NCBI GenBank assembly: GCA_947561715.1
Contig: OX387203.1
Location: 16,368,001-16,432,000 of the forward strand
Length of the DNA: 64,000 nt
Direction: 5' to 3'
DNA from: Ascidia mentula
Taxonomy: Eukaryota > Chordata > Ascidiacea > Phlebobranchia > Ascidiidae
The first letter of the stretch is position 1. Every line of letters starts with the position of its first letter. Below are positions 2,949 to 58,527 of the stretch, piece by piece. The translations under genes and the position numbers were made by a program. A model generated the notes under the pieces. It saw only the letters and a list, made by a program, of their open reading frames with translations. It did no database searches and was not told the origin of the DNA.

Positions 2949-2949
2949 T

Positions 2950-23481: not shown

Positions 23482-23490
23482 CAAAACATG
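23482..23490. repeat. Left target-site duplication CAAAACATG
   Basis: Identical to the 9 bases directly after the right TIR (58519-58527). Flanking bases beyond the 9-mer differ (g/t). Nine bp is the usual target duplication of Mutator-like elements. Confidence 0.9.
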
Positions 23491-23649
23491 GGTAGATACA
23501 TTGACCACATAACGGGGGCATCAACGCAAACCAGATTATGACGTCACAATCGCTTTTAACAATGGACAAGGTTGGGCGTGCTTCAAATGTGCGTGAAGTG
23601 CGCTGTAGTCTGAAACGCGTCAACTGAACCGTGAATGTTTTGAAGAATA
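23491..23649 (+). repeat. Left terminal inverted repeat, 159 bp
   Basis: Matches the reverse complement of 58360-58518 except at four positions (for example CCACATAAC against CCAAATAAC, and CATCAACG against CATCGACG). It contains the palindrome TGACGTCA at 23539. Its inner end includes ATGTTTTGAAGAATA, directly followed by the first 57-bp unit. The frame starting ATG at 23631 (MNVLKNI) enters the array. Confidence 0.95.
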
Positions 23650-26600
23650 TAATGTGGGTTGGGCCTAGATTTCAGTTATGGTGTAGCGTGGAAGCATTAA
23701 ATACTCTAATGTGGGTTGGGCCTAGATTTCAGTTATGGTGTAGCCTGGAAGCAATAAATACTCTAATGTGGGTTGGCCTAGATTTCAGTTATGATGTAGC
23801 GTGGAAGCATTAAATACTGTAATGTGGGTTGGGCCCAGATTTCAGTTATGGTGTAGCCTGGAAGCATTAAATACTGTAATGTGGGTTGGGCCTAGATTTC
23901 AGTTATGGTGTAGCCTGGAAGCATTAAATACTGTAATGTGGGTTGGGCCTAGATTTCAGTTATGGTGTAGCGTGGAAGCATTAAATACTCTAATGTGGGT
24001 TGGGCCTAGATTTCAGTTATGGTGTAGCCTGGAAGCATTAAATACTCTAATGTGGGTTGGCCTAGATTTCAGTTATGATGTAGCCTGGAAGCATTAAATA
24101 CTGTAATGTGGGTTGGGCCCAGATTTCAGTTATGGTGTAGCCTGGAAGCATTAAATACTGTAATGTGGGTTGGGCCTAGATTTCAGTTATGGTGTAGCCT
24201 GGAAGCATTAAATACTGTAATGTGGGTTGGGCCTAGATTTCAGTTATGGTGTAGCCTGGAAGCATTAAACACTCTAATGTGGGTTGGCCTAGATTTCAGT
24301 TATGATGTAGCCTGGAAGCATTAAATACTGTAATGTGGGTTGGGCCCAGATTTCAGTTATGGTGTAGCCTGGAAGCAATAAATACTGTAATGTGGGTTGG
24401 GCCTAGATTTCAGTTATGGTGTAGCCTGGAAGCATTAAATACTCTAATGTGGGTTGGCCTAGATTTCAGTCATGGTGTAGCGTGGAAGCATTAAATACTC
24501 TAATGTGGTTTGGGCGTAGATTTCAGTTATGGTGTAGCCTGGAAGCATTAAATACTCTAATGTGGGTTGGCCTAGATTTCAGTTATGGTGTAGCCTGGAA
24601 GCATTAAATACTCTAATGTGGGTTGGCCTAGATTTCAGTTATGGTGTAGCCTGGAAGCATTAAATACTCTAATGTGGGTTGGCCTAGATTTCAGTTATGG
24701 TGTAGCCTGGAAGCATTAAATACTCTAATGTGGGTTGGCCTAGATTTCAGTTATGGTGTAGCCTGGAAGCATTAAATACTCTAATGTGGGTTGGCCTAGA
24801 TTTCAGTTATGGTGTAGCCTGGAAGCATTAAATACTCTGATGTGGGTTGGGCCTAGATTTCAGTTATGGTGTAGCGTGGAAGCATTAAATACTCTAATGT
24901 GGTTTGGGCGTAGATTTCAGTTATGGTGTAGCCTGGAAGCATTAAATACTCTAATGTGGGTTGGGCCTAGATTTAAGTTATGGTGTAGCGTGGAAGCATT
25001 AAATACTGTAATGTGGGTTGGGCCCAGATTTCAGTTATGGTGTAGCGTGGAAGCATTAAATACTCTAATGTGGGTTGGGCCTAGATTTCAGTTATGATGT
25101 AGCCTGGAAGCATTAAATACTGTAATGTGGGTTGGGCCTAGATTTCAGTTATGGTGTAGCCTGGAAGCATTAAATACTGTAATGTGGGTTGGCCCAGATT
25201 TCAGTTATGGTGTAGCCTGGAAGCATTAAATACTCTAATGTGGGTTGGCCTAGATTTCAGTTATGGTGTAGCCTGGAAGCATTAAATACTGTAATGTGGG
25301 TTGGGCCTAGATTTAAGTTATGGTGTAGCGTGGAAGCATTAAATACTCTAATGTGGGTTGGCCCAGATTTCAGTTATGGTGTAGCCTGGAAGCATTAAAT
25401 ACTCTAATGTGGGTTGGCCCAGATTTCAGTTATGGTGTAGCCTGGAAGCATTAAATACTCTAATGTGGGTTGGCCCAGATTTCAGTTATGGTGTAGCCTG
25501 GAAGCATTAAATACTCTAATGTGGGTTGGCCCAGATTTCAGTTATGGTGTAGCCTGGAAGCATTAAATACTCTGATGTGGGTTGGGCCTAGATTTCAGTT
25601 ATGGTGTAGCCTGGAAGCATTAAATACTCTAATGTGGTTTGGGCGTAGATTTTAGTTATGGTGTAGCCTGGAAGCATTAAATACTCTAATGTGGGTTGGC
25701 CCAGATTTCAGTTATGGTGTAGCCTGGAAGCATTAAATACTCTAATGTGGGTTGGCCCAGATTTCAGTTATGGTGTAGCCTGGAAGCATTAAATACTCTG
25801 ATGTGGGTTGGGCCTAGATTTAAGTTATGGTGTAGCCTGGAAGCATTAAATACTCTAATGTGGGTTGGCCCAGATTTCAGTTATGGTGTAGCCTGGAAGC
25901 ATTAAATACTCTAATGTGGGTTGGCCCAGATTTCAGTTATGGTGTAGCCTGGAAGCATTAAATACTCTGATGTGGGTTGGGCCTAGATTTCAGTTATGGT
26001 GTAGCCTGGAAGCATTAAATACTCTAATGTGGTTTGGGCGTAGATTTTAGTTATGGTGTAGCCTGGAAGCATTAAATACTCTAATGTGGGTTGGCCCAGA
26101 TTTCAGTTATGGTGTAGCCTGGAAGCATTAAATACTCTAATGTGGGTTGGCCCAGATTTCAGTTATGGTGTAGCCTGGAAGCATTAAATACTCTAATGTG
26201 GGTTGGCCCAGATTTCAGTTATGGTGTAGCCTGGAAGCATTAAATACTCTAATGTGGGTTGGCCTAGATTTAAGTTATGGTGTAGCCTGGAAGCATTAAA
26301 TACTCTAATGTGGGTTGGCCCAGATTTCAGTTATGGTGTAGCCTGGAAGCATTAAATACTCTAATGTGGGTTGGCCCAGATTTCAGTTATGGTGTAGCCT
26401 GGAAGCATTAAATACTCTGATGTGGGTTGGGCCTAGATTTCAGTTATGGTGTAGCCTGGAAGCATTAAATACTCTAATGTGGGTTGGCCTAGATTTCAGT
26501 TATGGTGTAGCCTGGAAGCATTAAATACTCTAATGTGGGTTGGCCTAGATTTAAGTTATGGTGTAGCCTGGAAGCATTAAATACTCTGATGTGGGTTGGG

Positions 26601-29600
26601 CCTAGATTTCAGTTATGGTGTAGCGTGGAAGCATTAAATACTCTAATGTGGTTTGGGCGTAGATTTCAGTTATGGTGTAGCCTGGAAGCATTAAATACTC
26701 TAATGTGGGTTGGGCCTAGATTTAAGTTATGGTGTAGCGTGGAAGCATTAAATACTGTAATGTGGGTTGGGCCCAGATTTCAGTTATGGTGTAGCGTGGA
26801 AGCATTAAATACTCTAATGTGGGTTGGGCCTAGATTTCAGTTATGATGTAGCCTGGAAGCATTAAATACTGTAATGTGGGTTGGGCCTAGATTTCAGTTA
26901 TGGTGTAGCCTGGAAGCATTAAATACTGTAATGTGGGTTGGGCCTAGATTTCAGTTATGGTGTAGCCTGGAAGCATTAAATACTGTAATGTGGGTTGGCC
27001 CAGATTTCAGTTATGGTGTAGCCTGGAAGCATTAAATACTCTAATGTGGGTTGGCCTAGATTTCAGTTATGGTGTAGCCTGGAAGCATTAAATACTGTAA
27101 TGTGGGTTGGGCCTAGATTTAAGTTATGGTGTAGCGTGGAAGCATTAAATACTCTAATGTGGGTTGGCCCAGATTTCAGTTATGGTGTAGCCTGGAAGCA
27201 TTAAATACTCTAATGTGGGTTGGCCCAGATTTCAGTTATGGTGTAGCCTGGAAGCATTAAATACTCTAATGTGGGTTGGCCCAGATTTCAGTTATGGTGT
27301 AGCCTGGAAGCATTAAATACTCTAATGTGGGTTGGCCCAGATTTCAGTTATGGTGTAGCCTGGAAGCATTAAATACTCTGATGTGGGTTGGGCCTAGATT
27401 TCAGTTATGGTGTAGCCTGGAAGCATTAAATACTCTAATGTGGTTTGGGCGTAGATTTTAGTTATGGTGTAGCCTGGAAGCATTAAATACTCTAATGTGG
27501 GTTGGCCCAGATTTCAGTTATGGTGTAGCCTGGAAGCATTAAATACTCTAATGTGGGTTGGCCCAGATTTCAGTTATGGTGTAGCCTGGAAGCATTAAAT
27601 ACTCTGATGTGGGTTGGGCCTAGATTTAAGTTATGGTGTAGCCTGGAAGCATTAAATACTCTAATGTGGGTTGGCCCAGATTTCAGTTATGGTGTAGCCT
27701 GGAAGCATTAAATACTCTAATGTGGGTTGGCCCAGATTTCAGTTATGGTGTAGCCTGGAAGCATTAAATACTCTGATGTGGGTTGGGCCTAGATTTCAGT
27801 TATGGTGTAGCCTGGAAGCATTAAATACTCTAATGTGGTTTGGGCGTAGATTTTAGTTATGGTGTAGCCTGGAAGCATTAAATACTCTAATGTGGGTTGG
27901 CCCAGATTTCAGTTATGGTGTAGCCTGGAAGCATTAAATACTCTAATGTGGGTTGGCCCAGATTTCAGTTATGGTGTAGCCTGGAAGCATTAAATACTCT
28001 AATGTGGGTTGGCCCAGATTTCAGTTATGGTGTAGCCTGGAAGCATTAAATACTCTAATGTGGGTTGGCCTAGATTTAAGTTATGGTGTAGCCTGGAAGC
28101 ATTAAATACTCTAATGTGGGTTGGCCCAGATTTCAGTTATGGTGTAGCCTGGAAGCATTAAATACTCTAATGTGGGTTGGCCCAGATTTCAGTTATGGTG
28201 TAGCCTGGAAGCATTAAATACTCTGATGTGGGTTGGGCCTAGATTTCAGTTATGGTGTAGCCTGGAAGCATTAAATACTCTAATGTGGGTTGGCCTAGAT
28301 TTCAGTTATGGTGTAGCCTGGAAGCATTAAATACTCTAATGTGGGTTGGCCTAGATTTAAGTTATGGTGTAGCCTGGAAGCATTAAATACTCTAATGTGG
28401 GTTGGCCCAGATTTCAGTTATGGTGTAGCCTGGAAGCATTAAATACTCTGATGTGGGTTGGGCCTAGATTTCAGTTATGGTGTAGCCTGGAAGCATTAAA
28501 TACTCTGATGTGGGTTGGGCCTAGATTTCAGTTATGGTGTAGCCTGGAAGCATTAAATACTCTAATGTGGTTTGGGCGTAGATTTTAGTTATGGTGTAGC
28601 CTGGAAGCATTAAATACTCTAATGTGGGTTGGCCCAGATTTCAGTTATGGTGTAGCCTGGAAGCATTAAATACTCTAATGTGGGTTGGCCCAGATTTCAG
28701 TTATGGTGTAGCCTGGAAGCATTAAATACTCTAATGTGGGTTGGCCCAGATTTCAGTTATGGTGTAGCCTGGAAGCATTAAATACTCTAATGTGGGTTGG
28801 CCTAGATTTAAGTTATGGTGTAGCCTGGAAGCATTAAATACTCTAATGTGGGTTGGCCCAGATTTCAGTTATGGTGTAGCCTGGAAGCATTAAATACTCT
28901 AATGTGGGTTGGCCCAGATTTCAGTTATGGTGTAGCCTGGAAGCATTAAATACTCTGATGTGGGTTGGGCCTAGATTTCAGTTATGGTGTAGCCTGGAAG
29001 CATTAAATACTCTAATGTGGGTTGGCCTAGATTTCAGTTATGGTGTAGCCTGGAAGCATTAAATACTCTAATGTGGGTTGGCCTAGATTTAAGTTATGGT
29101 GTAGCCTGGAAGCATTAAATACTCTAATGTGGGTTGGCCCAGATTTCAGTTATGGTGTAGCCTGGAAGCATTAAATACTCTGATGTGGGTTGGGCCTAGA
29201 TTTCAGTTATGGTGTAGCCTGGAAGCATTAAATACTCTAATGTGGTTTGGGCGTAGATTTTAGTTATGGTGTAGCCTGGAAGCATTAAATACTCTAATGT
29301 GGTTTGGGCGTAGATTTTAGTTATGGTGTAGCCTGGAAGCATTAAATACTCTAATGTGGTTTGGGCGTAGATTTTAGTTATGGTGTAGCCTGGAAGCATT
29401 AAATACTCTAATGTGGTTTGGGCGTAGATTTTAGTTATGGTGTAGCCTGGAAGCATTAAATACTCTAATGTGGGTTGGGCCTAGATTTAAGTTATGGTGT
29501 AGCGTGGAAGCATTAAATACTGTAATGTGGGTTGGGCCCAGATTTCAGTTATGGTGTAGCGTGGAAGCATTAAATACTCTAATGTGGGTTGGGCCTAGAT

Positions 29601-32600
29601 TTCAGTTATGGTGTAGCGTGGAAGCATTAAATACTCTGATGTGGGTTGGCCCTTGATTTCAGTTATGATGTAGCCTGGAAGCATTAAATACTGTAATGTG
29701 GGTTGGGCCTAGATTTCAGTTATGGTGTAGCCTGGAAGCATTAAATACTGTAATGTGGGTTGGGCCTAGATTTCAGTTATGGTGTAGCCTGGAAGCATTA
29801 AATACTGTAATGTGGGTTGGGCCCAGATTTCAGTTAGGGTGTAGCGTGGAAGCATTAAATACTGTAATGTGGGTTGGGCCTAGATTTCAGTTATGGTGTA
29901 GCCTGGAAGCATTAAATACTCTAATGTGGGTTGGCCTAGATTTCAGTTATGGTGTAGCCTGGAAGCATTAAATACTCTGATGTGGGTTGGGCCTAGATTT
30001 CAGTTATGGTGTAGCGTGGAAGCATTAAATACTCTAATGTGGTTTGGGCATAGATTTCAGTTATGGTGTAGCCTGGAAGCATTAAATACTCTAATGTGGG
30101 TTGGGCCTAGATTTCAGTTATGGTGTAGCGTGGAAGCATTAAATACTCTGATGTGGGTTGGGCCTAGATTTCAGTTATGGTGTAGCGTGGAAGCATTAAA
30201 TACTCCAATGTGGGTTGGGCCTAGATTTCAGTTATGGTGTAGCCTGGAAGCATTAAATACTCTGATGTGGGTTGGGCCTAGATTTCAGTTATGGTGTAGC
30301 CTGGAAGCATTAAATACTGCAATGTGGGCTGGGCCTAGATTTCAGTTATGGTGTATCATGGAAGCATTAAATACTCTAATGTGGTTTGGGCCTAGATTTC
30401 AGTTATGGTGTAGCCTGGAAGCATTAAATACTCTGATGTGGGTTGGGCGTAGATTTCGGTTATGGTGTAGCGTGGAAGCATTAAATACTCTAATGTGGGT
30501 TTGGCTTAGATTTCAGTTATGGTGTAGCCTGGAAGCATTAAATACTCTGATGTGGGTTGGGCCTAGATTTCAGTTATGGTGTAGCCTGGAAGCATTAAAT
30601 ACTCTAATGTGGGTTGGGCCTAGATTTCAGTTATGGTGTAGCCTGGAAGCATTAAATACTGTAATGTGGGTTGGGCCTAGATTTCAGTTATGGTGTAGCC
30701 TGGAAGCATTAAATACTCTAATGTGGGTTGGGCCTAGATTTCAGTTATGGTGTAGCCTGGAAGCAATAAATACTCTGATGTTGGTTGGGCCTAGATTTCA
30801 GTTATGGTGTAGCCTGGAAGCATTAAATACTCTGATGTGGGTTGGGCCTAGATTTCAGTTATGGTGTAGCCTGGAAGCATTAAATACTGTAATGTGGGTT
30901 GGGCCTAGATTTCAGTTATGGTGTAGCCTGGAAGCATTAAATACTCTAATGTGGGTTGGGCCTAGATTTCAGTTATGGTGTAGCCTGGAAGCATTAAATA
31001 CTCTGATGTGGGTTGGGCCTAGATTTCAGTTATGGTGTAGCCTGGAAGCATTAAATACTGTAATGTGGGCTGGGCCTAGATTTCAGTTATGGTGTATCAT
31101 GGAAGCATTAAATACTCTAATGTGGTTTGGGCCTAGATTTCAGTTATGGTGTAGCCTGGAAGCATTAAATACTCTGATGTGGGTTGGGCGTAGATTTCGG
31201 TTATGGTGTAGCGTGGAAGCATTAAATACTCTAATGTGGGTTTGGCTTAGATTTCAGTTATGGTGTAGCCTGGAAGCATTAAATACTCTGATGTGGGTTG
31301 GGCCTAGATTTCAGTTATGGTGTAGCCTGGAAGCATTAAATACTGTAATGTGGGTTGGGCCTAGATTTCAGTTATGATGTATCATGGAAGCATTAAATAC
31401 TCTAATGTGGTTTGGGCCTAGATTTCAGTTATGGTGTAGCCTGGAAGCATTAAATACTCTGATGTGGGTTGGGCCTAGATTTCGGTTATGGTGTAGCGTG
31501 GAAGCATTAAATACTCTAATGTGGGTTTGGCTTAGATTTCAGTTATGGTGTAGCCTGGAAGCATTAAATACTCTGATGTGGGTTGGGCTTAGATTTCGGT
31601 TATGGTGTAGCGTGGAAGCATTAAATACTCTAATGTGGTTTGGGCCTAGATTTCGGTTATGGTGTAGCGTGGAAGCATTAAATACTGTAATGTGGTTTGG
31701 GCGTAGATTTCAGTTATGGTGTAGCCTGGAAGCATTAAATACTGTAATGTGGGTTGGGCCTAGATTTCGGTTATGGTGTAGCGTGGAAGCATTAAATACT
31801 GTAATGTGGTTTGGGCCTAGATTTCAGTTATGGTGTAGCCTGGAAGCATTAAATACTGTAATGTGGGTTGGGCCTAGATTTCAGTTATGGTGTAGCGTGG
31901 AAGCATTAAATACTGTAATGTGGGTTGGGCCTAGATTTCGGTTATGGTGTAGCGTGGAAGCATTAAATACTGTAATGTGGTTTGGGCGTAGATTTCAGTT
32001 ATGGTGTAGCCTGGAAGCATTAAATACTGTAATGTGGGTTGGGCCTAGATTTCAGTTATGGTGTATCGTGGAAGCATTAAATACTCTAATGTGGTTTGGG
32101 CCTAGATTTTGGTTATGGTGTAGCCTGGAAGCATTAAATACTCTGATGTGGGTTGGGCCTAGATTTCGGTTATGGTGTAGCGCGGAGGCATTAAATACTC
32201 TAATGTGGGTTGGGCCTAGATTTCGGTTATGGTGTAGCGTGGAAGCATTAAATACTCTAATGTGGGTTGGGCTTCGATTTCAGTTATGGTGTAGCCTGGA
32301 AGCATTAAATACTCTAATGTGGGTTGGGCTTAGATTTCAGTTATGGTGTAGCCTGGAAGAATTAAATACTGTAATGTGGTTTGGGCCTAGATTTCGGTTA
32401 TGGTGTAGCGTGGAAGCATTAAATACTCTAATGTGGGTTGGGCTTAGATTTCAGTTATGGTGTAGCGTGGAAGCATTAAATACTCTAATGTGGTTTGGGC
32501 CTAGATTTCGGTTATGGTGTAGCGTGGAAGCATTAAATACTCTAATGTGGGTTGGGCTTAGATTTCAGTTATGGTGTAGCCTGGAAGCATTAAATACTGT

Positions 32601-33821
32601 AATGTGGGTTGGGCTTAGATTTCAGTTATGGTGTAGCGTGGAAGCATTAAATACTCTAATGTGGGTTGGGCTTAGATTTCAGTTATGGTGTAGCGTGGAA
32701 GCATTAAATACTCTAATGTGGGTTGGGCTTAGATTTCAGTTATGGTGTAGCCTGGAAGCATTAAATACTGTAATGTGGTTTGGGCCTAGATTTCGGTTAT
32801 GGTGTAGCGTGGAAGCATTAAATACTCTAATGTGGGTTGGGCTTAGATTTCAGTTATGGTGTAGCGTGGAAGCATTAAATACTCTAATGTGGGTTGGGCT
32901 TAGATTTCAGTTATGGTGTAGCGTGGAAGCATTAAATACTCTAATGTGGGTTGGGCTTAGATTTCAGTTATGGTGTAGCCTGGAAGCATTAAATACTGTA
33001 ATGTGGTTTGGGCCTAGATTTCGGTTATGGTGTAGCTTGGAAGCATTAAATACTCTAATGTGGGTTGGGCTTAGATTTCAGTTATGGTGTAGCGTGGAAG
33101 CATTAAATACTCTAATGTGGGTTGGGCTTAGATTTCAGTTATGGTGTAGCGTGGAAGCATTAAATACTCTAATGTGGGTTGGGCTTAGATTTCAGTTATG
33201 GTGTAGCGTGGAAGCATTAAATACTCTAATGTGGGTTGGGCTTAGATTTCAGTTATGGTGTAGCGTGGAAGCATTAAATACTCTAATGTGGTTTGGGCCT
33301 AGATTTCGGTTATGGTGTAGCTTGGAAGCATTAAATACTCTAATGTGGGTTGGGCTTAGATTTCAGTTATGGTGTAGCGTGGAAGCATTAAATACTCTAA
33401 TGTGGGTTGGGCTTAGATTTCAGTTATGGTGTAGCGTGGAAGCATTAAATACTCTAATGTGGGTTGGGCTTAGATTTCAGTTATGGTGTAGCGTGGAAGC
33501 ATTAAATACTCTAATGTGGGTTGGGCTTAGATTTCAGTTATGGTGTAGCCTGGAAGCATTAAATACTGTAATGTGGTTTGGGCCTAGATTTCGGTTATGG
33601 TGTAGCTTGGAAGCATTAAATACTCTAATGTGGGTTGGGCTTAGATTTCAGTTATGGTGTAGCGTGGAAGCATTAAATACTCTAATGTGGGTTGGGCTTA
33701 GATTTCAGTTATGGTGTAGCGTGGAAGCATTAAATACTCTAATGTGGGTTGGGCTTAGATTTCAGTTATGGTGTAGCCTGGAAGCATTAAATACTCTAAT
33801 GTGGGTTGGACCTAGATTTCA
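23650..33821 (+). repeat. Left arm: 57-bp satellite, about 180 units
   Basis: Each unit reads TAATGTGGGTTGGGCCTAG, then ATTTCAGTTATGGTGTAGC, then CTGGAAGCATTAAATACTC, with few variable sites. In the outer two thirds many units lack one G in GGTTGGGCC and are 56 bp, which breaks the 19-codon frame repeatedly. From about 29926 to 33821 almost all units are 57 bp. The block 24786-25097 recurs at 26535-26846, 1749 bp away (31 units, 18 of them 56 bp). The inner end is GATTTCAG followed by AAGCTTGATGGTGTAAAATAG. Confidence 0.97.
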
Positions 33822-33843
33822 GAAGCTTGATGGTGTAAAATAG
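29926..33843 (+). other. Long open frames in the left arm (483 and 819 codons)
   Basis: Two frames, 29926-31377 and 31384-33843, are separated by one stop (TATGATGTATC in place of TATGGTGTAGC). They repeat the 19-residue unit MWVGPRFQLWCSLEALNTL with variants at V/F, P/L/R, Q/R and L/V. Most substitutions between units are non-synonymous, with only a few silent ones (CTA/CTG, CCT/CCC). That does not suggest purifying selection. The frame follows from unit length 57 = 3 x 19 with a stop-free consensus. Translation is unproven and I regard it as unlikely. Confidence 0.3.
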
Positions 33844-33972
33844 AAATTACTTTAATTAGGTTCTGTTCTACTACAAAACTCATAGATTTTGTGCGAAAAG
33901 ATGTTTTTTTGTCAAAGAAGTTTCAGTCTTTTGAAAGATGTTGTTGACTCTCATGAGTCTCGGCAATTTAGA

Positions 33973-35234
33973 AATTGTGTGCCAATGCCCAAAAAATGCT
34001 CTCCCATTGTTTTTTCTCTGTGTGAAGACAAATGTTGGTTATCAAGTTGTTGCCAGCTTCATTACACAGAATGAAAGAGAAAATTTGGACATTGAAGAGG
34101 CACTGAAAATATTGAAAGAATGGACTCCTGCATGGCAACCATCATTTTTTATGGTAGACAAATGTGATGCTGAGATCCATGCCATTGAAAGCATTTTTAC
34201 AGGTTAAAGTTCTACATCAAATGTACATGTAAAAATAACTATTTTATAGATGTCCGTGTCCTCATTTGCGATTTTCATCGTTAACAGGCATGGGAAAGAT
34301 GGGTTAAAAAATCTGAAAACCAAGTAGGTCCAGACAAGGACAAAGTTTTGACATTTATGAGAGGAATTGCTAACGCTGAATGTGAAAAAAGCTGCAACAA
34401 AGCACTGCAGATATTTCAGTCAAGTTCAGTTTTGGAAAACAAGCCAAAACTACAAAAATACTTCACAAATATTTGGCTTAAAGATAAAGAGGTTTGAGTA
34501 TTTACAAAACATATATGTCAAATGTAACTTCTGTTCATGCATGTTTTCTAGCGTTGGATGTGGCTCTATCGAGCAGACCAGTTAAAGGTTTTGATCCGCA
34601 CCAACAATGGTGTTGAGAGACAAAACCGAGTTTTAAAAGAATGCCATGTGCGATTTAGGACTGATAAGTCGCTTTCTGGCTTAATTACAATTTTGCACCA
34701 TGAATTTTTGCCAAATGCATATGAGAAGTGAGTGTACCTCCACTAAAACATTTATGGTTATATGCAAGAACATGCAATCAAAATGAATCAATAAATTTTA
34801 TTTTGAGCAGATACAAACAACAAAACATGAGATCTTCTGGAAATTACAGAAGTTACAATGCTGAGGTTCCCAGCTTTCTTCGAAACCGACCAAGAAAATT
34901 GGTAAAACATTGTATAAAACGTATCGGAGAAACTACAAACATTCAGGCAAGTTCTATATGTAGAAAAGGGGACTTGTTCACTGTGGTAAGCAGTTCCTCT
35001 TCTGAAATATACACCATTAAATTTGGCACCGAAAGAGATTTTCCAAAGTGTACATGTCATGATTTTTTACACAATTTTTTACCATGCAAACACATGTTTG
35101 CAATTTTTAACAAGTATGCAGATGTTGGATGGCATAGTCTGCCAGATTGGTACTCCAATTCTGTTTATATGGTTTTGGATCCGGTTGTTGTGAACAAATT
35201 GTCAGCTGAAACTGTTTGTGATACTGTGGTCTAA
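33973..35234 (+). pseudogene. MULE transposase, C-terminal half plus SWIM zinc finger
   Basis: Four exons can be joined. To 34202: ALPLFFLCVKTNVGYQVVAS and FFMVDKCDAEIHAI. 34250-34491: VRVLICDFHR, stop, QAWERWVKKSENQVGPDKDK. 34552-34727: RWMWLYRADQ and TNNGVERQNRVLKE, holding the acidic residue of the DDE triad. From 34811: a SWIM zinc finger, CTCHDFLHNFLPCKHMFAIF (CxC...CxH). Introns are 47, 60 and 83 bp with GT-AG ends. Family features are those of animal MULE transposases, nuclear DNA-cutting enzymes that bind TIRs. Lesions: TAA at 34282-34284 inside CDFHRxQAW, and TAA at 35232-35234. The region upstream of ALPLFF, which should hold the DATYKT-type first catalytic Asp, is replaced by unrelated sequence and then the 57-bp array. 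The protein is therefore not functional as it stands. Confidence 0.85.
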
Positions 35235-36122
35235 ACACAAGACATCAAGATTTCATCCACAAACCAATCAATTGCTCAACCTGAAAACATTGTAACTGAC
35301 GACAAAACCTGCGGTATTGACAACAAAACCTCAGATTGCAAACAAAGCCATCAAAAGTTTATTGAATTAATGAAGCATTTGATAGACTCATTGCCACCAG
35401 CTGAAGTTTGCGAGCTTAAAAAGCATGACAGCAGATTTAATGTTGGTTGGCTTTATGATGAAGTCATTAACAGCTACTTATGGCGATTAACTGGTGTGCA
35501 CCAACACACACTTTATGTTTGTTCGACAGTGGCTCAAATATTACAAAGAAAAGCTTTCATTAAAAAAGTTTGGGAAGGGATGAATTTGCAAGGGAAACAA
35601 ACACTGTTTATACCTTGGAACTCTTCAGGCTTTCACTGGGTTTTGCTTGTAGTTGACATCCCTGGTCGAAAAATGCTGTACATAGACCCAGTAGCAATGC
35701 CTTGTGTAAAAACAAACAGCAATGTTCAAACTGCAAAAGCTATGGTGAATTGTCTAATGGTAACAAAGTTTGGTTGGAAAATTAATACTGTGGAAATACC
35801 ACACAGAACAAAACAGCCAGATGGATCAAGTTGTGGAGTGATGATATGTATGTATGCGAAATGGCTAGCAACTGGAGAAAAACATGTGCAAAATGTTTGT
35901 ACCTACAGCTATAGACTTGAAATGTTTGGGGAAATTGCTGGCAAATGTCTTCAAGGCACAAATGAAATAGAGACATGTAAAGTATGTGGAGATGAAGGCG
36001 CCAATCCCCTGAAAAAAGTTTGGATTGAGTGCACTCGATGTGGACAGTGGTTTCACATCACGTGTGTTGGTTTTTCAGAGAAGCAAGCAAAAAAAGATAA
36101 ATATTTTGTGTGCACATTGTAA
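35235..36122 (+). pseudogene. Ulp1-like cysteine protease and PHD finger, same frame as transposase
   Basis: The frame continues after the TAA at 35232 without a shift. It begins with about 45 residues of polar linker, then WLYDEVINSYLWRL, the typical start of a Ulp1/C48 peptidase domain. The catalytic elements are visible: HWVLLVVD (His), YIDP (Asp), and KQPDGSSCGVMIC (Gln and Cys). Ulp1-type enzymes cleave SUMO or related modifiers. Their fusion to MULE transposases is known from plant Kaonashi-type elements. A PHD zinc finger follows (CKVCGDEG, then WIECTRCGQWFHITCVG, ending YFVCTL). The last cysteine of the final CxxC pair is missing because a TAA comes directly after CTL. Apart from the upstream stop and this end, the domain is intact, so a separate product from a downstream start (for example the Met at 35370) is conceivable. 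Confidence 0.8.
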
Positions 36123-36225
36123 ATCAAACAGCATTACAATCTGTTAAACAAAAAAGAACACCAGCCAAATGAAATTTATTCACTATACCATAACAACCAC
36201 AATGTCCCAATTTTTTTAGTTTTAT

Positions 36226-36475
36226 CACTTCTGCAAAGTGACTGTAATACCGTACCTTTTTGGTTTTGGCCTGAAGGGTGTAACACTCTTGGAGTGACGG
36301 TAAACCTGACCAATCGGGACTCTACCTGAGAGGTGTAACACTCCTGCAAAGTGAATTTCCTACCATACCTATGGATTTTGACCCAAATGGTGTAACACTC
36401 GTAGAGTGATGGTAAACCTGACCAATCGGGACTCTACCTGAGAGGTGTAACACTTCTGCAGAGTGATTTTAAGAC
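36226..36475. repeat. 112-bp internal tandem repeat with hairpin motifs
   Basis: The segment GTGTAACACTCTTGGAGTG followed by ACGGTAAACCTGACCAATCG occurs at 36278 and again at 36390 (period 112 bp). CACTTCTGCAAAGTG-type short hairpins occur at 36226, about 36338 and 36450. It lies directly downstream of the PHD finger inside the transposon. Confidence 0.8.
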
Positions 36476-44700: not shown

Positions 44701-44717
44701 CTACACCATAACTGAAA

Positions 44718-47700: not shown

Positions 47701-50700
47701 AGAGTATTTAATGCTTCCACGCTACACCATAATTGAAATCTAGGCCCAACCCACATTAGAGTATTTAATGCTTCCACGCTACACCATAACTGAAATCTAG
47801 GCCCAACCCACATTAGAGTATTTAATGCTTCCACGCTACACCATAATTGAAATCTAGGCCCAAACCACATTAGAGTATTTAATGCTTCCACGCTACACCC
47901 TAACTGAAATCTGGGCCCAACCCACATTACAGTATTTAATGCTTCCAGGCTACACCATAACTGAAATCAAGGCCCAACCCACATTAGAGTATTTAATGCT
48001 TCCACGCTACACCATAACTGAAATCTAGGCCAACCCACATTACAGTATTTAATGCTTCCACGCTACACCATAACTGAAATCTAGGCCCAACCCACATTAG
48101 AGTATTTAATGCTTCCACGCTACACCCTAACTGAAATCTGGGCCCAACCCACATTAGAGTATTTAATGCTTCCACGCTACACCATAACTGAAATCTAGGC
48201 CCAACCCACATTACAGTATTTAATGCTTCCAGGCTACACCATAACTGAAATCTAGGCCCAACCCACATTAGAGTATTTAATGCTTCCACGCTACACCCTA
48301 ACTGAAATCTAGGCCCAACCCACATTACAGTATTTAATGCTTCCACGCTACACCATAACTGAAATCTAGGCCCAACCCACATTAGAGTATTTAATGCTTC
48401 CACGCTACACCCTAACTGAAATCTGGGCCCAACCCACATTAGAGTATTTAATGCTTCCACGCTACACCCTAACTGAAATCTGGGCCCAACCCACATTAGA
48501 GTATTTAATGCTTCCACGCTACACCATAACTGAAATCTAGGCCCAACCCACATTACAGTATTTAATGCTTCCACGCTACACCATAACTGAAATCTAGGCC
48601 CAAACCACATTACAGTATTTAATGCTTCCACGCTACACCATAACTGAAATCTAGGCCCAACCCACATTACAGTATTTAATGCTTCCACGCTACACCCTAA
48701 CTGAAATCTGGGCCCAACCCACATTAGAGTATTTAATGCTTCCACGCTACACCATAACTGAAATCTAGGCCCAAACCACATTACAGTATTTAATGCTTCC
48801 ATCCTACACCATAAATGAAATCTAGGCCCAACCCACATTACAGTATTTAATGCTTCCACGCTACACCATAACTGAAATCTAGGCCCAACCCACATTAGAG
48901 TATTTAATGCTTCCACGCTACACCATAACTGAAATCTAGGCCCAACCCACATTAGAGTATTTAATGCTTCCACGCTACACCATAACTGAAATCTAGGCCC
49001 AACCCACATTAGAGTATTTAATGCTTCCACGCTACACCATAACTGAAATCTAGGCCCAAACCACATTACAGTATTTAATGCTTCCATCCTACACCATAAC
49101 TGAAATCTAGGCCCAACCCACATTAGAGTATTTAATGCTTCCACGCTACACCATAACTGAAATCTAGGCCCAACCCACATTACAGTATTTAATGCTTCCA
49201 CGCTACACCATAACTGAAATCTAGGCCCAAACCAAATTACAGTATTTAATGCTTCCACGCTACACCATAACTGAAATCTAGGCCCAACCCACATTACAGT
49301 ATTTAATGCTTCCACGCTACACCCTAACTGAAATCTGGGCCCAACCCACATTAGAGTATTTAATGCTTCCACGCTACACCATAACTGAAATCTAGGCCCA
49401 AACCACATTACAGTATTTAATGCTTCCACGCTACACCATAACTGAAATCTAGGCCCAACCCACATTACAGTATTTAATGCTTCCAGGCTACACCATAACT
49501 GAAATCTAGGCCCAACCCACATTAGAGTATTTAATGCTTCCAGACTACATCATAACTGAAATCTAGGCCCAACCCACATTAGAGTATTTAATGCTTCCAC
49601 GCTACACCATAACTGAAATCTAGGCCCAACCCACATTACAGTATTTAATGCTTCCACGCTACACCATAACTGAAATCTAGGCCCAACCCACATTACAGTA
49701 TTTAATGCTTCCACGCTACACCATAACTGAAATCTACGCCCAAACCACATTAGAGTATTTAATGCTTCCACGCTACACCATAATTGAAATCTAGGCCCAA
49801 ACCACATTAGAGTATTTAATGCTTCCACGCTACACCCTAACTGAAATCTGGGCCCAACCCACATTACAGTATTTAATGCTTCCAGGCTACACCATAACTG
49901 AAATCAAGGCCCAACCCACATTACAGTATTTAATGCTTCCACGCTACACCATAACTGAAATCTAGGCCCAACCCACATTAGAGTATTTAATGCTTCCACG
50001 CTACACCCTAACTGAAATCTGGGCCCAACCCACATTAGAGTATTTAATGCTTCCACGCTACACCATAACTGAAATCTAGGCCCAACCCACATTACAGTAT
50101 TTAATGCTTCCAGGCTACACCATAACTGAAATCTAGGCCCAACCCACATTAGAGTATTTAATGCTTCCACGCTACACCCTAACTGAAATCTAGGCCCAAC
50201 CCACATTACAGTATTTAATGCTTCCACGCTACACCATAACTGAAATCTAGGCCCAACCCACATTAGAGTATTTAATGCTTCCACGCTACACCCTAACTGA
50301 AATCTGGGCCCAACCCACATTAGAGTATTTAATGCTTCCACGCTACACCCTAACTGAAATCTGGGCCCAACCCACATTAGAGTATTTAATGCTTCCACGC
50401 TACACCATAACTGAAATCTAGGCCCAACCCACATTACAGTATTTAATGCTTCCACGCTACACCATAACTGAAATCTAGGCCCAAACCACATTACAGTATT
50501 TAATGCTTCCACGCTACACCATAACTGAAATCTAGGCCCAACCCACATTACAGTATTTAATGCTTCCACGCTACACCCTAACTGAAATCTGGGCCCAACC
50601 CACATTAGAGTATTTAATGCTTCCACGCTACACCATAACTGAAATCTAGGCCCAAACCACATTACAGTATTTAATGCTTCCATCCTACACCATAAATGAA

Positions 50701-53700
50701 ATCTAGGCCCAACCCACATTAGAGTATTTAATGCTTCCACGCTACACCATAACTGAAATCTAGGCCCAACCCACATTAGAGTATTTAATGCTTCCACGCT
50801 ACACCATAACTGAAATCTAGGCCCAACCCACATTAGAGTATTTAATGCTTCCACGCTACACCATAACTGAAATCTAGGCCCAACCCACATTAGAGTATTT
50901 AATGCTTCCACGCTACACCATAACTGAAATCTAGGCCCAACCCACATTAGAGTATTTAATGCTTCCACGCTACACCATAACTGAAATCTAGGCCCAAACC
51001 ACATTACAGTATTTAATGCTTCCACGCTACACCATAACTGAAATCTAGGCCCAACCCACATTACAGTATTTAATGCTTCCATCCTACACCATAACTGAAA
51101 TCTAGGCCCAACCCACATTAGAGTATTTAATGCTTCCACGCTACACCATAACTGAAATCTAGGCCCAACCCACATTACAGTATTTAATGCTTCCACGCTA
51201 CACCATAACTGAAATCTAGGCCCAACCCACATTACAGTATTTAATGCTTCCAGGCTACACCATAACTGAAATCTAGGCCCAAACCACATTACAGTATTTA
51301 ATGCTTCCACGCTACACCATAACTGAAATCTAGGCCCAACCCACATTACAGTATTTAATGCTTCCACGCTACACCCTAACTGAAATCTGGGCCCAACCCA
51401 CATTAGAGTATTTAATGCTTCCACGCTACACCATAACTGAAATCTAGGCCCAAACCACATTACAGTATTTAATGCTTCCATCCTACACCATAACTGAAAT
51501 CTAGGCCCAACCCACATTAGAGTATTTAATGCTTCCACGCTACACCATAACTGAAATCTAGGCCCAACCCACATTACAGTATTTAATGCTTCCACGCTAC
51601 ACCATAACTGAAATCTAGGCCCAAACCACATTACAGTATTTAATGCTTCCACGCTACACCATAACTGAAATCTAGGCCCAACCCACATTACAGTATTTAA
51701 TGCTTCCACGCTACACCCTAACTGAAATCTGGGCCCAACCCACATTAGAGTATTTAATGCTTCCACGCTACACCATAACTGAAATCTAGGCCCAAACCAC
51801 ATTACAGTATTTAATGCTTCCACGCTACACCATAACTGAAATCTAGGCCCAACCCACATTACAGTATTTAATGCTTCCACGCTACACCATAACTGAAATC
51901 TAGGCCCAACCCACATTACAGTATTTAATGCTTCCACGCTACACCATAACTGAAATCTAGGCCCAACCCACATTACAGTATTTAATGCTTCCACGCTACA
52001 CCATAACTGAAATCTAGGCCCAACCCACATTACAGTATTTAATGCTTCCACGCTACACCATAACTGAAATCTAGGCCCAACCCACATTACAGTATTTAAT
52101 GCTTCCACGCTACACCATAACTGAAATCTAGGCCCAACCCACATTACAGTATTTAATGCTTCCACGCTACACCATAACTGAAATCTAGGCCCAACCCACA
52201 TTAGAGTATTTAATGCTTCCACGCTACACCATAACTGAAATCTGGGCCCAACCCACATTAGAGTATTTAATGCTTCCACGCTACACCATAACTGAAATCT
52301 AGGCCCAACCCACATTACAGTATTTAATGCTTCCAGGCTACACCATAACTGAAATCTAGGCCCAACCCACATTAGAGTATTTAATGCTTCCACGCTACAC
52401 CCTAACTGAAATCTAGGCCCAACCCACATTACAGTATTTAATGCTTCCACGCTACACCATAACTGAAATCTAGGCCCAACCCACATTAGAGTATTTAATG
52501 CTTCCACGCTACACCATAACTGAAATCTAGGCCCAACCCACATTACAGTATTTAATGCTTCCACGCTACACCATAACTGAAATCTAGGCCCAAACCACAT
52601 TACAGTATTTAATGCTTCCACGCTACACCATAACTGAAATCTAGGCCCAACCCACATTACAGTATTTAATGCTTCCACGCTACACCCTAACTGAAATCTG
52701 GGCCCAACCCACATTAGAGTATTTAATGCTTCCATGCTACACCATAACTGAAATCTAGGCCCAAACCACATTACAGTATTTAATGCTTCCACGCTACACC
52801 ATAACTGAAATCTAGGCCCAACCCACATTACAGTATTTAATGCTTCCAGGCTACACCATAACTGAAATCTAGGCCCAACCCACATTAGAGTATTTAATGC
52901 TTCCAGACTACATCATAACTGAAATCTAGGCCCAACCCACATTAGAGTATTTAATGCTTCCACGCTACACCATAACTGAAATCTAGGCCCAACCCACATT
53001 ACAGTATTTAATGCTTCCACGCTACACCATAACTGAAATCTAGGCCCAACCCACATTACAGTATTTAATGCTTCCACGCTACACCATAACTGAAATCTAC
53101 GCCCAAACCACATTAGAGTATTTAATGCTTCCACGCTACACCATAACTGAAATCTAGGCCCAAACCACATTAGAGTATTTAATGCTTCCACGCTACACCC
53201 TAACTGAAATCTGGGCCCAACCCACATTACAGTATTTAATGCTTCCAGGCTACACCATAACTGAAATCAAGGCCCAACCCACATTACAGTATTTAATGCT
53301 TCCACGCTACACCATAACTGAAATCTAGGCCCAACCCACATTAGAGTATTTAATGCTTCCACGCTACACCCTAACTGAAATCTGGGCCCAACCCACATTA
53401 GAGTATTTAATGCTTCCACGCTACACCATAACTGAAATCTAGGCCCAACCCACATTACAGTATTTAATGCTTCCAGGCTACACCATAACTGAAATCTAGG
53501 CCCAACCCACATTAGAGTATTTAATGCTTCCACGCTACACCCTAACTGAAATCTAGGCCCAACCCACATTACAGTATTTAATGCTTCCACGCTACACCAT
53601 AACTGAAATCTAGGCCCAACCCACATTAGAGTATTTAATGCTTCCACGCTACACCCTAACTGAAATCTGGGCCCAACCCACATTAGAGTATTTAATGCTT

Positions 53701-56700
53701 CCACGCTACACCCTAACTGAAATCTGGGCCCAACCCACATTAGAGTATTTAATGCTTCCACGCTACACCATAACTGAAATCTAGGCCCAACCCACATTAC
53801 AGTATTTAATGCTTCCACGCTACACCATAACTGAAATCTAGGCCCAAACCACATTACAGTATTTAATGCTTCCACGCTACACCATAACTGAAATCTAGGC
53901 CCAACCCACATTACAGTATTTAATGCTTCCACGCTACACCCTAACTGAAATCTGGGCCCAACCCACATTAGAGTATTTAATGCTTCCACGCTACACCATA
54001 ACTGAAATCTAGGCCCAAACCACATTACAGTATTTAATGCTTCCATCCTACACCATAAATGAAATCTAGGCCCAACCCACATTACAGTATTTAATGCTTC
54101 CACGCTACACCATAACTGAAATCTAGGCCCAACCCACATTAGAGTATTTAATGCTTCCACGCTACACCATAACTGAAATCTAGGCCCAACCCACATTAGA
54201 GTATTTAATGCTTCCACGCTACACCATAACTGAAATCTAGGCCCAACCCACATTAGAGTATTTAATGCTTCCACGCTACACCATAACTGAAATCTAGGCC
54301 CAACCCACATTACAGTATTTAATGCTTCCACGCTACACCATAACTGAAATCTAGGCCCAACCCACATTACAGTATTTAATGCTTCCAGGCTACACCATAA
54401 CTGAAATCTAGGCCCAAACCACATTACAGTATTTAATGCTTCCACGCTACACCATAACTGAAATCTAGGCCCAACCCACATTACAGTATTTAATGCTTCC
54501 ACGCTACACCCTAACTGAAATCTGGGCCCAACCCACATTAGAGTATTTAATGCTTCCACGCTACACCATAACTGAAATCTAGGCCCAAACCACATTACAG
54601 TATTTAATGCTTCCATCCTACACCATAACTGAAATCTAGGCCCAACCCACATTAGAGTATTTAATGCTTCCACGCTACACCATAACTGAAATCTAGGCCC
54701 AACCCACATTACAGTATTTAATGCTTCCACGCTACACCATAACTGAAATCTAGGCCCAAACCACATTACAGTATTTAATGCTTCCACGCTACACCATAAC
54801 TGAAATCTAGGCCCAACCCACATTACAGTATTTAATGCTTCCACGCTACACCCTAACTGAAATCTGGGCCCAACCCACATTAGAGTATTTAATGCTTCCA
54901 CGCTACACCATAACTGAAATCTAGGCCCAAACCACATTACAGTATTTAATGCTTCCACGCTACACCATAACTGAAATCTAGGCCCAACCCACATTACAGT
55001 ATTTAATGCTTCCACGCTACACCATAACTGAAATCTAGGCCCAACCCACATTACAGTATTTAATGCTTCCACGCTACACCATAACTGAAATCTAGGCCCA
55101 ACCCACATTACAGTATTTAATGCTTCCACGCTACACCATAACTGAAATCTAGGCCCAACCCACATTACAGTATTTAATGCTTCCACGCTACACCATAACT
55201 GAAATCTAGGCCCAACCCACATTACAGTATTTAATGCTTCCACGCTACACCATAACTGAAATCTAGGCCCAACCCACATTAGAGTATTTAATGCTTCCAC
55301 GCTACACCATAACTGAAATCTGGGCCCAACCCACATTAGAGTATTTAATGCTTCCACGCTACACCATAACTGAAATCTAGGCCCAACCCACATTACAGTA
55401 TTTAATGCTTCCAGGCTACACCATAACTGAAATCTAGGCCCAACCCACATTAGAGTATTTAATGCTTCCACGCTACACCCTAACTGAAATCTAGGCCCAA
55501 CCCACATTACAGTATTTAATGCTTCCACGCTACACCATAACTGAAATCTAGGCCCAACCCACATTAGAGTATTTAATGCTTCCACGCTACACCCTAACTG
55601 AAATCTGGGCCCAACCCACATTAGAGTATTTAAAGCTTCCACGCTACACCCTAACTGAAATCTGGGCCCAACCCACATTAGAGTATTTAATGCTTCCACG
55701 CTACACCATAACTGAAATCTAGGCCCAACCCACATTACAGTATTTAATGCTTCCACGCTACACCATAACTGAAATCTAGGCCCAAACCACATTACAGTAT
55801 TTAATGCTTCCACGCTACACCATAACTGAAATCTAGGCCCAACCCACATTACAGTATTTAATGCTTCCACGCTACACCCTAACTGAAATCTGGGCCCAAC
55901 CCACATTAGAGTATTTAATGCTTCCACGCTACACCATAACTGAAATCTAGGCCCAAACCACATTACAGTATTTAATGCTTCCATCCTACACCATAAATGA
56001 AATCTAGGCCCAACCCACATTACAGTATTTAATGCTTCCACGCTACACCATAACTGAAATCTAGGCCCAACCCACATTAGAGTATTTAATGCTTCCACGC
56101 TACACCATAACTGAAATCTAGGCCCAACCCACATTAGAGTATTTAATGCTTCCACGCTACACCATAACTGAAATCTAGGCCCAACCCACATTAGAGTATT
56201 TAATGCTTCCACGCTACACCATAACTGAAATCTAGGCCCAACCCACATTACAGTATTTAATGCTTCCACGCTACACCATAACTGAAATCTAGGCCCAAAC
56301 CACATTACAGTATTTAATGCTTCCACGCTACACCATAACTGAAATCTAGGCCCAACCCACATTACAGTATTTAATGCTTCCATCCTACACCATAACTGAA
56401 ATCTAGGCCCAACCCACATTAGAGTATTTAATGCTTCCACGCTACACCATAACTGAAATCTAGGCCCAACCCACATTACAGTATTTAATGCTTCCACGCT
56501 ACACCATAACTGAAATCTAGGCCCAACCCACATTACAGTATTTAATGCTTCCAGGCTACACCATAACTGAAATCTAGGCCCAAACCACATTACAGTATTT
56601 AATGCTTCCACGCTACACCATAACTGAAATCTAGGCCCAACCCACATTACAGTATTTAATGCTTCCACGCTACACCCTAACTGAAATCTGGGCCCAACCC

Positions 56701-58359
56701 ACATTAGAGTATTTAATGCTTCCACGCTACACCATAACTGAAATCTAGGCCCAAACCACATTACAGTATTTAATGCTTCCATCCTACACCATAACTGAAA
56801 TCTAGGCCCAACCCACATTAGAGTATTTAATGCTTCCACGCTACACCATAACTGAAATCTAGGCCCAACCCACATTACAGTATTTAATGCTTCCACGCTA
56901 CACCATAACAGAAATCTAGGCCCAAACCACATTACAGTATTTAATGCTTCCACGCTACACCATAACTGAAATCTAGGCCCAACCCACATTACAGTATTTA
57001 ATGCTTCCACGCTACACCCTAACTGAAATCTGGGCCCAACCCACATTAGAGTATTTAATGCTTCCACGCTACACCCTAACTGAAATCTGGGCCCAACCCA
57101 CATTAGAGTATTTAATGCTTCCACGCTACACCATAACTGAAATCTAGGCCCAAACCACATTACAGTATTTAATGCTTCCACGCTACACCATAACTGAAAT
57201 CTAGGCCCAACCCACATTACAGTATTTAATGCTTCCACGCTACACCATAACTGAAATCTAGGCCCAACCCACATTACAGTATTTAATGCTTCCACGCTAC
57301 ACCATAACTGAAATCTAGGCCCAACCCACATTACAGTATTTAATGCTTCCACGCTACACCATAACTGAAATCTAGGCCCAACCCACATTAGAGTATTTAA
57401 TGCTTCCACGCTACACCATAACTGAAATCTAGGCCCAACCCACATTACAGTATTTAATGCTTCCACGCTACACCATAACTGAAATCTAGGCCCAAACCAC
57501 ATTACAGTATTTAATGCTTCCACGCTACACCATAACTGAAATCTAGGCCCAACCCACATTACAGTATTTAATGCTTCCACGCTACACCATAACTGAAATC
57601 TAGGCCCAACCCACATTACAGTATTTAATGCTTCCACGCTACACCATAACTGAAATCTAGGCCCAACCCACATTAGAGTATTTAATGCTTCCACGCTACA
57701 CCATAACTGAAATCTAGGCCCAACCCACATTACAGTATTTAATGCTTCCACGCTACACCATAACTGAAATCTAGGCCCAAACCACATTACAGTATTTAAT
57801 GCTTCCACGCTACACCATAACTGAAATCTAGGCCCAACCCACATTACAGTATTTAATGCTTCCACGCTACACCATAACTGAAATCTAGGCCCAACCCACA
57901 TTACAGTATTTAATGCTTCCACGCTACACCATAACTGAAATCTAGGCCCAACCCACATTACAGTATTTAATGCTTCCACGCTACACCATAACTGAAATCT
58001 AGGCCCAACCCACATTACAGTATTTAATGCTTCCACGCTACACCATAACTGAAATCTAGGCCCAACCCACATTACAGTATTTAATGCTTCCACGCTACAC
58101 CATAACTGAAATCTAGGCCCAACCCACATTAGAGTATTTAATGCTTCCACGCTACACCATAACTGAAATCTAGGCCCAACCCACATTAGAGTATTTAATG
58201 CTTCCACGCTACACCATAACTGAAATCTAGGCCCAACCCACATTAGAGTATTTAATGCTTCCACGCTACACCATAACTGAAATCTAGGCCCAACCCACAT
58301 TAGAGTATTTAATGCTTCCACGCTACACCATAACTGAAATCTAGGCCCAACCCACATTA
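44718..58359 (-). repeat. Outer right-arm higher-order repeats (47- and 59-unit spacing)
   Basis: A marker block carrying the 56-bp-type junction CTTCCAGACTACATCATAACTG occurs at 46872, 49550 and 52913. The spacings are 2678 bp (47 units less one base) and 3363 bp (59 x 57). The 3363-bp spacing also relates 49904 to 53267. This indicates successive unequal exchanges of different lengths. Confidence 0.8.
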
Positions 58360-58378
58360 TATTCTTCAAAACATTCAC
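53267..58378 (-). other. 1703-codon open frame starting in the right TIR
   Basis: It begins MNVLKNIMWVGPRFQLWC within the TIR and runs inward through about 90 units without a stop. It ends where a unit with ATCAAGG in place of ATCTAGG changes the minus-strand frame (CCTTGAT). The left TIR has the same start (MNVLKN at 23631), but that frame breaks after about 60 codons at a 56-bp unit. Further frames of 993 (49904-52885), 708 (44718-46844) and 509 codons lie inward. No signal peptide or known domain is visible. The repeat is rich in Trp, Leu and Cys, which is unusual for a real structural repeat. Probably not a gene. Confidence 0.3.
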
Positions 58379-58518
58379 GGTTCAGTTGACGCGTTTCAGA
58401 CTACAGCGCACTTCACGCACATTTGACGCACGCACAACCTTGTCCATTGTTAAAAGCGATTGTGACGTCATAATCTGGTTTGCGTCGATGCCCCCGTTAT
58501 TTGGTCAATGTATCTACC
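58360..58518 (-). repeat. Right terminal inverted repeat, 159 bp
   Basis: Reverse complement of 23491-23649 with four mismatches. It ends TCAATGTATCTACC and includes TGACGTCA at 58463. Confidence 0.95.
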
Positions 58519-58527
58519 CAAAACATG
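58519..58527. repeat. Right target-site duplication CAAAACATG
   Basis: Same 9 bases as 23482-23490. Confidence 0.9.

Follow-up and report, generated by a model that had tools for sequence, protein, structure and literature searches.

The window, the 64,000-nucleotide stretch of DNA analysed here (C71:16368001-16432000), contains an element of 35,028 bp at window positions 23491-58518, which we call E1. Its features are collected in Table 1, and the 195.8-Mb, 79-contig assembly was searched for related sequences. The mitochondrial COX1 of this assembly, translated with the ascidian code, shares 90% identity with a Phallusia entry, against 76-81% for the other tunicates among the 120 matches listed, and we take the host to be an ascidian close to Phallusia. 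The initial annotation had described the 35,028 bp as one inserted unit, bracketed by 159-bp terminal inverted repeats (TIRs) with 4 mismatches and by a perfect 9-bp target site duplication (TSD). Each of these statements held: the TIRs align without gaps, CAAAACATG flanks the element on both sides, and the TIRs, the TSD and a set of paralogous empty sites together support one inserted unit. Members of the Mutator (MULE) superfamily are marked by a MULE-type DDE transposase, TIRs and a TSD of about 8-11 bp, mostly 9; the TIRs of E1, 159 bp long with 4 mismatches, agree with this description.

Table 1. Features of E1 and its flanks, in window coordinates.
Feature	Position	Strand	Basis or remark
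Left TSD CAAAACATG	23482..23490	.	identical to right copy; single at 7 paralogous empty sites by coordinates
Left TIR, 159 bp, begins GGTAGATACATTGACC	23491..23649	+	ungapped alignment, 4 mismatches to right TIR
Left arm, 57-bp tandem array, ~178 units	23650..33822	+	Tandem Repeats Finder and unit split
Core, internally deleted relative to E4-type copies	33823..37406	+	comparison with E4
MULE / ZSWIM1-3 RNaseH-like transposase fragment	33935..34207	+	both below Pfam cut-off; without MDATYKT
SWIM zinc finger stretch of transposase	34725..35234	+	PF04434 4.6e-5
Ulp1/C48 peptidase and PHD finger	35235..36122	+	PF02902 1.1e-10, PF00628 5.3e-8
Right arm, 57-bp tandem array, ~366 units	37407..58359	-	Tandem Repeats Finder and unit split
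Right TIR, 159 bp	58360..58518	-	4 mismatches to left TIR
Right TSD CAAAACATG	58519..58527	.	perfect 9-bp copy of left TSD

A genome-wide TIR search, in which 40 of 46 candidates were scored and all counts are lower bounds, yielded at least 40 TIR matches, which form 15 pairs and 10 single ends by position. Eleven pairs were fetched whole, namely E1 (from the window) and E2 to E11, and four further pairs, E12 to E15, in part or whole. The lengths of E1 to E6 are 35.0, 10.5, 11.9, 10.5, 9.6 and 10.5 kb, and those of E7 to E11 are 14.5, 11.3, 11.5, 26.5 and 2.6 kb; the figure for E10 includes a 14.3-kb nested insert, and that for E8 an insert of about 3.7 kb. No element as long as E1 was found at two places, E1 being the longest copy sampled. 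Such a list of copies with lengths and TSDs had been proposed as a check of the insertion, and it came out in favour: all eleven whole elements (2.6-35.0 kb) have a perfect TSD, 9 bp long in ten and 10 bp in one (E3). Among the four further pairs, whose TIRs are diverged, the TSD of E12 agrees at 8 of 9 bases, E14 has a 9-bp match with a one-base offset, and no TSD was found for E15; these three of the four gave a clear outcome.

When the sequences beside E1 were used as queries against the genome, the 501-bp left flank matched in 9 additional rows and the right flank in 11, every one of them on C71 between 16.16 and 16.60 Mb, that is, within a local segmental duplication. At seven places the left and right flank paralogs adjoin with an overlap of exactly 9 bp, the signature of an empty site. 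The initial annotation had suggested looking for one in other individuals or related species; these seven lie in the same genome, and the four that were read as sequence (the E8-linked site and three more) each hold one CAAAACATG. In one paralog another member of the family, E8, lies about 190 bp from the E1-type site; there the joined flanks of E1 match at 96% identity over 602 bp. The empty site of E8 is in turn visible in the window. A further paralog at 16.349 Mb gave only a partial match, in which the insertion site is not covered. E1 thus entered one of the copies of a segment that is duplicated locally, and it duplicated 9 bp of its target. Chance is excluded as the source of these boundaries, since all eleven whole elements carry a perfect TSD and the flanks overlap by 9 bp at seven places.

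Most of E1 is repeat. Tandem Repeats Finder reported 57-bp arrays of 179.5 copies on the left and 367.6 copies on the right, in opposite orientation, and splitting them into units gave 178 and 366. As assembled, the arms measure 10.2 and 21.0 kb and so make up 89% of the element (31.1 kb), in agreement with the earlier description of about 31 kb of one 57-bp repeat in two inverted arms. The mean identity of a unit to the consensus is 96.4% on the left and 96.9% on the right, figures computed from the units that measure exactly 57 bp (122 of the 178 on the left, 365 of the 366 on the right). The right arm has higher-order block duplications with a period of 1,767 bp, or 31 units, and block repeats of 31, 35 and 66 units. 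E1 also contains 246 exact inverted matches of at least 100 bases, the longest of 170 bp. Elements of the foldback structural class have long inverted tandem-repeat arms of variable number, and their single strands snap back on renaturation; alongside the 178 and 366 units of E1, the other ten whole copies have 0-130 units per arm. In E1 the arms form the inner portion of long TIRs, with the 57-bp unit in inverted orientation. Open reading frames encoding a 19-aa repeat run along the arms (up to 1,704 aa) and were not taken for genes: 57 is 3 x 19, and a frame that has no stop in the unit therefore continues along the whole array.

The arm length rests on the assembly, and a 21-kb array is hard to assemble, which could favour an assembly artefact or a rearrangement that joined unrelated TIR ends. 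We regard this as highly improbable, given the perfect TSD and the seven empty sites. Moreover, the longest exact direct repeat within E1 is 2,356 bp (at about 37582 and 39349), well within long-read range, so that long reads could resolve the array.

Between the arms lies the core, in which SWIM, C48/Ulp1 and PHD score above the Pfam cut-offs and MULE and ZSWIM1-3 below them, the MULE part being a 90-aa frame. Of the MULE/SWIM/Ulp1/PHD core claimed at the outset, the last three components therefore stand, but the core is internally deleted and its MULE component is only a fragment below the cut-off. Two stretches of E4 are missing from E1, one of about 2.2 kb near 33992-33995 and one of 505 bp near 35387. 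The motif MDATYKT of the MULE transposase, which we take to hold the first catalytic Asp, occurs in seven of the eleven whole elements and in none of the core-strand frames of E1, E2, E8 and E11. An autonomous MULE encodes a complete transposase with its catalytic triad; E1 does not qualify, as MDATYKT is absent from its three core-strand frames and its core carries two deletions relative to E4. The MULE-type DDE transposase of the family is represented by E4, E1 itself retaining the sub-cut-off fragment only. One E4 frame matches ALS2CR8 with ZSWIM1/3 RNaseH-like/MULE (PF10551 1.8e-8, PF21056 2.3e-12), and of the two RNaseH-like/MULE models ZSWIM1/3 scores higher. Another frame matches SWIM with C48/Ulp1 and PHD, and a third had no match in the domain search. 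Judged from the sequence, these separate open frames are presumably exons.

The deletions of E1 recur in its closest relatives. The E2 core matches that of E1 over 2,190 bp at 99.6%, across both deletion junctions, and the E8 core over 2,845 bp at 99.3%, across the second junction only. Because both deletions are common to E2 and one to E8, at such identity, E1 probably belongs to a non-autonomous line that is moved in trans. In the simplest reading, we infer that E1, E2 and E8 form such a line, now at three sites, with the transposase made elsewhere. Fuller-core relatives such as E4 and E6 would supply the enzyme that moves E1 in trans, a proposal that draws on the MULE stretch of E1, which lacks MDATYKT, and on the same deletions in E2 (both) and E8 (the second). 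E1, E2 and E8 might instead have moved with a fuller core and lost parts of it afterwards, although both deletion junctions are common to E1 and E2.

Arm length varies far more than the core in this line. E2 has 130 units on the left and 7 on the right, and E8 has 32 and 41, so that the right arms of E1, E2 and E8 differ up to 50-fold in length. Unit types are common mostly by side (0.91 of those in the left arm of E8, E8L, occur in that of E1, E1L; 0.81 of those in E2L occur in E1L; and 0.76 of those in E8R occur in E1R), but also across sides (E2L in E1R 0.56, E8L in E1R 0.53), and the arms are thus not strictly separate. The longest identical run of units within the line is 8. We compared unit order by alignment score against the maximum of 30 order-shuffles. 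E1R and E8R align over 19 units, 14 of them exact (score 24, shuffle maximum 9), E1L and E8L over 11 (15 against 8), and E1L and E2L over 10 units close to the inner ends of the two arms (17 against 10). With the same 30 shuffles, unit order did not exceed the shuffled maximum for E2L and E8L (14 against 14) or for the unrelated pair E1R and E4R (4 against 5). Furthermore, 19 unit types are common to E1L and E2L and absent from the eight elements outside the line, so that a left arm of many units was probably in place in their ancestor when it moved. Overall, the arms seem to evolve through the duplication and loss of blocks, at a pace that is high relative to core divergence and with the two sides largely independent of each other. 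E4 and E6, on the other hand, are identical over 10,521 bp, including arms of 34 and 25 units (59 in total), and have different TSDs. Identity at different sites means that the arms were copied with the element, and the E family has probably been active recently.

We conclude that E1 is, very probably, a non-autonomous foldback Mutator (MULE) element, a TIR-bounded insertion moved in trans, whose arms change by duplication and loss of blocks. Each arm would lengthen and shorten on its own through such events inside the array, for which out-of-register exchange, replication slippage and gap repair after excision are candidate routes, and changes in arm length may be largely neutral to mobility while the terminal TIRs stay intact. 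How much of the array travelled with E1 is a separate matter. We give even chances to the view that E1 inserted as an ordinary element of 5-15 kb and that most of the 31-kb arm grew in place later. Among the relatives whose cores are 99.3-99.6% identical, arm size ranges from 7 to 130 units; exact block duplications of up to 2,356 bp abound in E1R, and no other fetched copy has arms as long. Conversely, the 19 unit types specific to E1L and E2L point to an ancestor whose multi-unit left arm probably already moved, and the 130-unit arm of E2 lies within its own TSD.

The homogeneity and higher-order structure of the arms are as in satellite DNA, and the arms might stem from an independent genomic satellite that a MULE captured or landed in. 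We consider this very unlikely. A 27-bp unit probe had 1810 matches genome-wide, of which 1345 fall in E1 to E11 (546 of these in E1) and 465 outside them. Three loci on C2, near 12.1-12.2 Mb, are TIR-less in the 1.3 kb read and were considered as a free satellite from which the arms could derive. They hold 3-7 strong unit matches each, beside the 3' part of the element, and represent a locally duplicated 3' part; all three (3/3) thus carry element sequence, and these loci were rejected as a free source. The inverted arrangement of the arms, inside the TSD, also argues against capture.

Other MULEs of this genome bear on where the arms came from. L044 (C69) is a sister MULE of 7.2 kb, 78% identical to E4 in the core, with TIRs of about 290 bp and a TSD of 9 ± 1 bp; no tandem array was found between its ends. 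Another sister, F45 (C70), carries TIRs of 120 bp and, on one side only, an array of a 97-bp unit that numbers 18.5 units, against 21.5 units in a 98%-identical copy on C59. The arms of the E clade were plausibly derived from plain TIRs, although arms may instead have been lost in L044. The left arm of E10 hosts a further, unrelated foldback element of 14,292 bp, with 42-bp arms of 149 and 47 units. It is flanked by an 8-bp TSD, and its frames show MULE and C48 matches as well as a PHD match that is below the cut-off. It showed no significant similarity to the MULE stretch of E4 (E 0.07), and against P0001 only a short PHD match (5e-4). Two smaller copies of this element are almost all arm and have 8-9-bp TSDs. 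Given that the 57-bp and 42-bp lineages are distant, the MULEs of this genome seem to have acquired satellite arms on at least two occasions. Tentatively, and with less than even confidence, we suggest that satellite-built inverted arms are a recurrent, mobile trait of ascidian MULEs bearing Ulp1 and PHD, built independently by two lineages and copied even at tens of kilobases, and that their carriers seed, move and enlarge satellite DNA.

That two distant MULE lineages here share one architecture with unrelated units could also reflect selection, which would keep the arms long if the unit were a putative extra transposase-binding site, by analogy with a proposal made for Galileo. A stretch of the 57-bp unit does resemble the outer end of the L044 TIR: for one unit variant, 4/1000 dinucleotide shuffles scored as well over the whole TIR and 1/1000 over its outer 60 bases. 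Still, this likeness is post hoc and runs in opposite orientation, and the other variant gave 64/1000 over the whole TIR (3/1000 over the outer 60 bases). Neither the TIR of E1 itself (346 and 477 of 1000 shuffles) nor the ends of F45 (171 to 836 of 1000) showed a likeness to the unit above shuffles. In addition, the TSD of E11 is intact although one of its arms holds 3 units and the other has none. We therefore treat the resemblance to the outer L044 TIR as a weak lead only, and selection for arm length as doubtful.

Foldback arms around a MULE transposase are reportedly present in FARE, a plant family of foldback MULEs from Arabidopsis. The initial annotation knew of no described MULE with arms of the size and homogeneity of those in E1. 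Its point about size stands, but the architecture is known, from FARE as well as from Tm1 and Tetris. Since Mutator/foldback elements with tandem-repeat TIRs have already been described, the size of E1 rather than its architecture is unusual: its arms are about 6 and 12 times the longest sequenced TIR of the compared foldback elements (1,735 bp in Tetris). Foldback Mutator elements are a small known class, of which E1 is an extreme case. In titles and abstract openings of the open-licence literature, we found no Mutator element with arms near the size of those in E1, no ascidian element like it, and no match to its scale in sequence, its type of transposase or the graded series of its relatives.

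Tm1, a Mutator/Foldback family of root-knot nematodes, resembles the E family in its composite TIRs, in which the outer domain is short and the tandem repeats vary in number between ends and copies, in its 9-bp TSD and in the presence of a MULE transposase in some copies; the MITE-like majority has no transposase (30 of 39 in M. incognita) (PMC3169594). In contrast to the 57-bp unit of the E family, present in up to 366 copies, its unit is about 14 bp long and occurs 1-9 times per TIR. The Tm1 transposase is Phantom-like with a FLYWCH domain, whereas the E family has SWIM, Ulp1 and PHD, and Tm1 is reported to be decaying, whereas the E family has two identical copies (PMC3169594).

Tetris, a foldback element of Drosophila virilis, is closer in layout. 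It has an outer unique TIR domain followed by internal tandem repeats, as in E1, and 8-10-bp TSDs, and its repeats, as in the E family, expand into satellite-like arrays (PMC4079207). Its fibre-FISH revealed long repeat arrays between two outer TIR domains, and long arrays within an element therefore have precedent (PMC4079207). Structurally complete sequenced copies have TIRs of up to 1,735 bp, sequenced arrays reach 66 copies of 220 bp, and no transposase copy is known (PMC4079207). Unlike these arrays, the 366 units of E1 are present in the assembled sequence, enclosed by intact TIRs and a perfect TSD. In one subfamily of Galileo, a foldback-like element, the TIRs are likewise long and contain internal tandem repeats, and the two ends change length independently; Galileo differs in its P-superfamily transposase, its 7-bp TSD and a longest TIR of about 1.26 kb, and its TIRs are longest in copies without transposase (PMC3573991). 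Plant MULEs with tandem TIRs are similar to the E family in having extra tandem copies while still being mobile, but what they are reported to repeat is extra copies of the TIR, whereas E1 repeats a 57-bp unit hundreds of times (PMC3310237).

The authors of the Tetris study raised the idea that larger arrays may have disrupted transposition, that is, that there is a limit to arm length (PMC4079207). The genome examined here offers a graded series of MULEs, with a plain TIR, a one-sided array, two-sided arrays and giant arrays, together with a distant second case, so that both the origin of satellites in transposons and an arm-length limit on transposition become directly testable, and the relatives of E1 show how such arms come and go. 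Beyond this genome, a protein search with the 611-aa frame of E4 returned 11 proteins, the best of them 98% identical at 59% coverage, on a 2-kb contig. The only named ones were two from Ciona intestinalis (37% and 36%); judged on the protein alone, LOC144746767 (P0005), 37% identical to the 611-aa frame, resembles E4 in carrying ALS2CR8, MULE, SWIM, C48 and PHD in the same order.

We found that E10, a further whole copy of the family of E1 (the 35,028-bp foldback MULE), carries a nested element that is itself a second satellite-armed MULE, distant from the E1 family. Its arms are built of a 42-bp unit (149 + 47 copies), its frames match MULE and C48 with a weak PHD match, and its TSD is the 8-bp CATTTATG. 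Smaller copies at L054 and L055 consist almost wholly of arms, with TSDs of 8-9 bp.

In F45, a sister MULE with a tandem array on one side only, the array counts 18.5 units in the C70 copy versus 21.5 in the copy on the small contig C59 (L047). The copies are 98% identical, and C59 may be the other haplotype. Regarding the source of E1's 57-bp arm unit, the outer TIR end (69-128) of L044, a sister MULE with plain TIRs, resembles the unit in 25 of 33 aligned columns; against dinucleotide-shuffled sequences the counts were 1-4 in 1000 with one variant of the unit and 3-64 in 1000 with the other. This likeness, not seen at the F45 ends, is a weak hint of where the unit may have come from.

E1 and its close relative E8 were inserted in different paralogs of a duplicated segment on C71, at points ~190 bp apart. 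Around the E1 insertion, such segments form a local family (C71:16.16-16.60 Mb). Within one arm, E8 carries a nested insert (element bases about 497-4220) whose end is a tail of TGATT-like repeats.

Long open frames, the largest of 1,704 aa, run through the E1 arms and encode a repeat of 19 aa. They stay open because the unit measures 57 bases, and in our judgement they are not genes.

Coordinates of features in the window and in related elements
Feature	Position	Strand	Details
190-bp array	window 8207-9128		4.9 copies; outside E1
20-bp array	window 9501-12627		about 156 diverged copies (78% matches); outside E1
Protein kinase domain frame	window 22125-22697	(-)	PF00069 1.8e-26; near left end of E1
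E1 flanks	window 22990-23490 and 58519-59019		members of the C71 duplicated-segment family
19-aa-repeat open frame	window 53267-58381	(-)	long; one of several array frames
Satellite-armed MULE in E10	L033:1090 to L034:5381; C52 about 490,228-504,519		14,292 bp
F45	L045/L046 = C70:3126500-3139500		97-bp array
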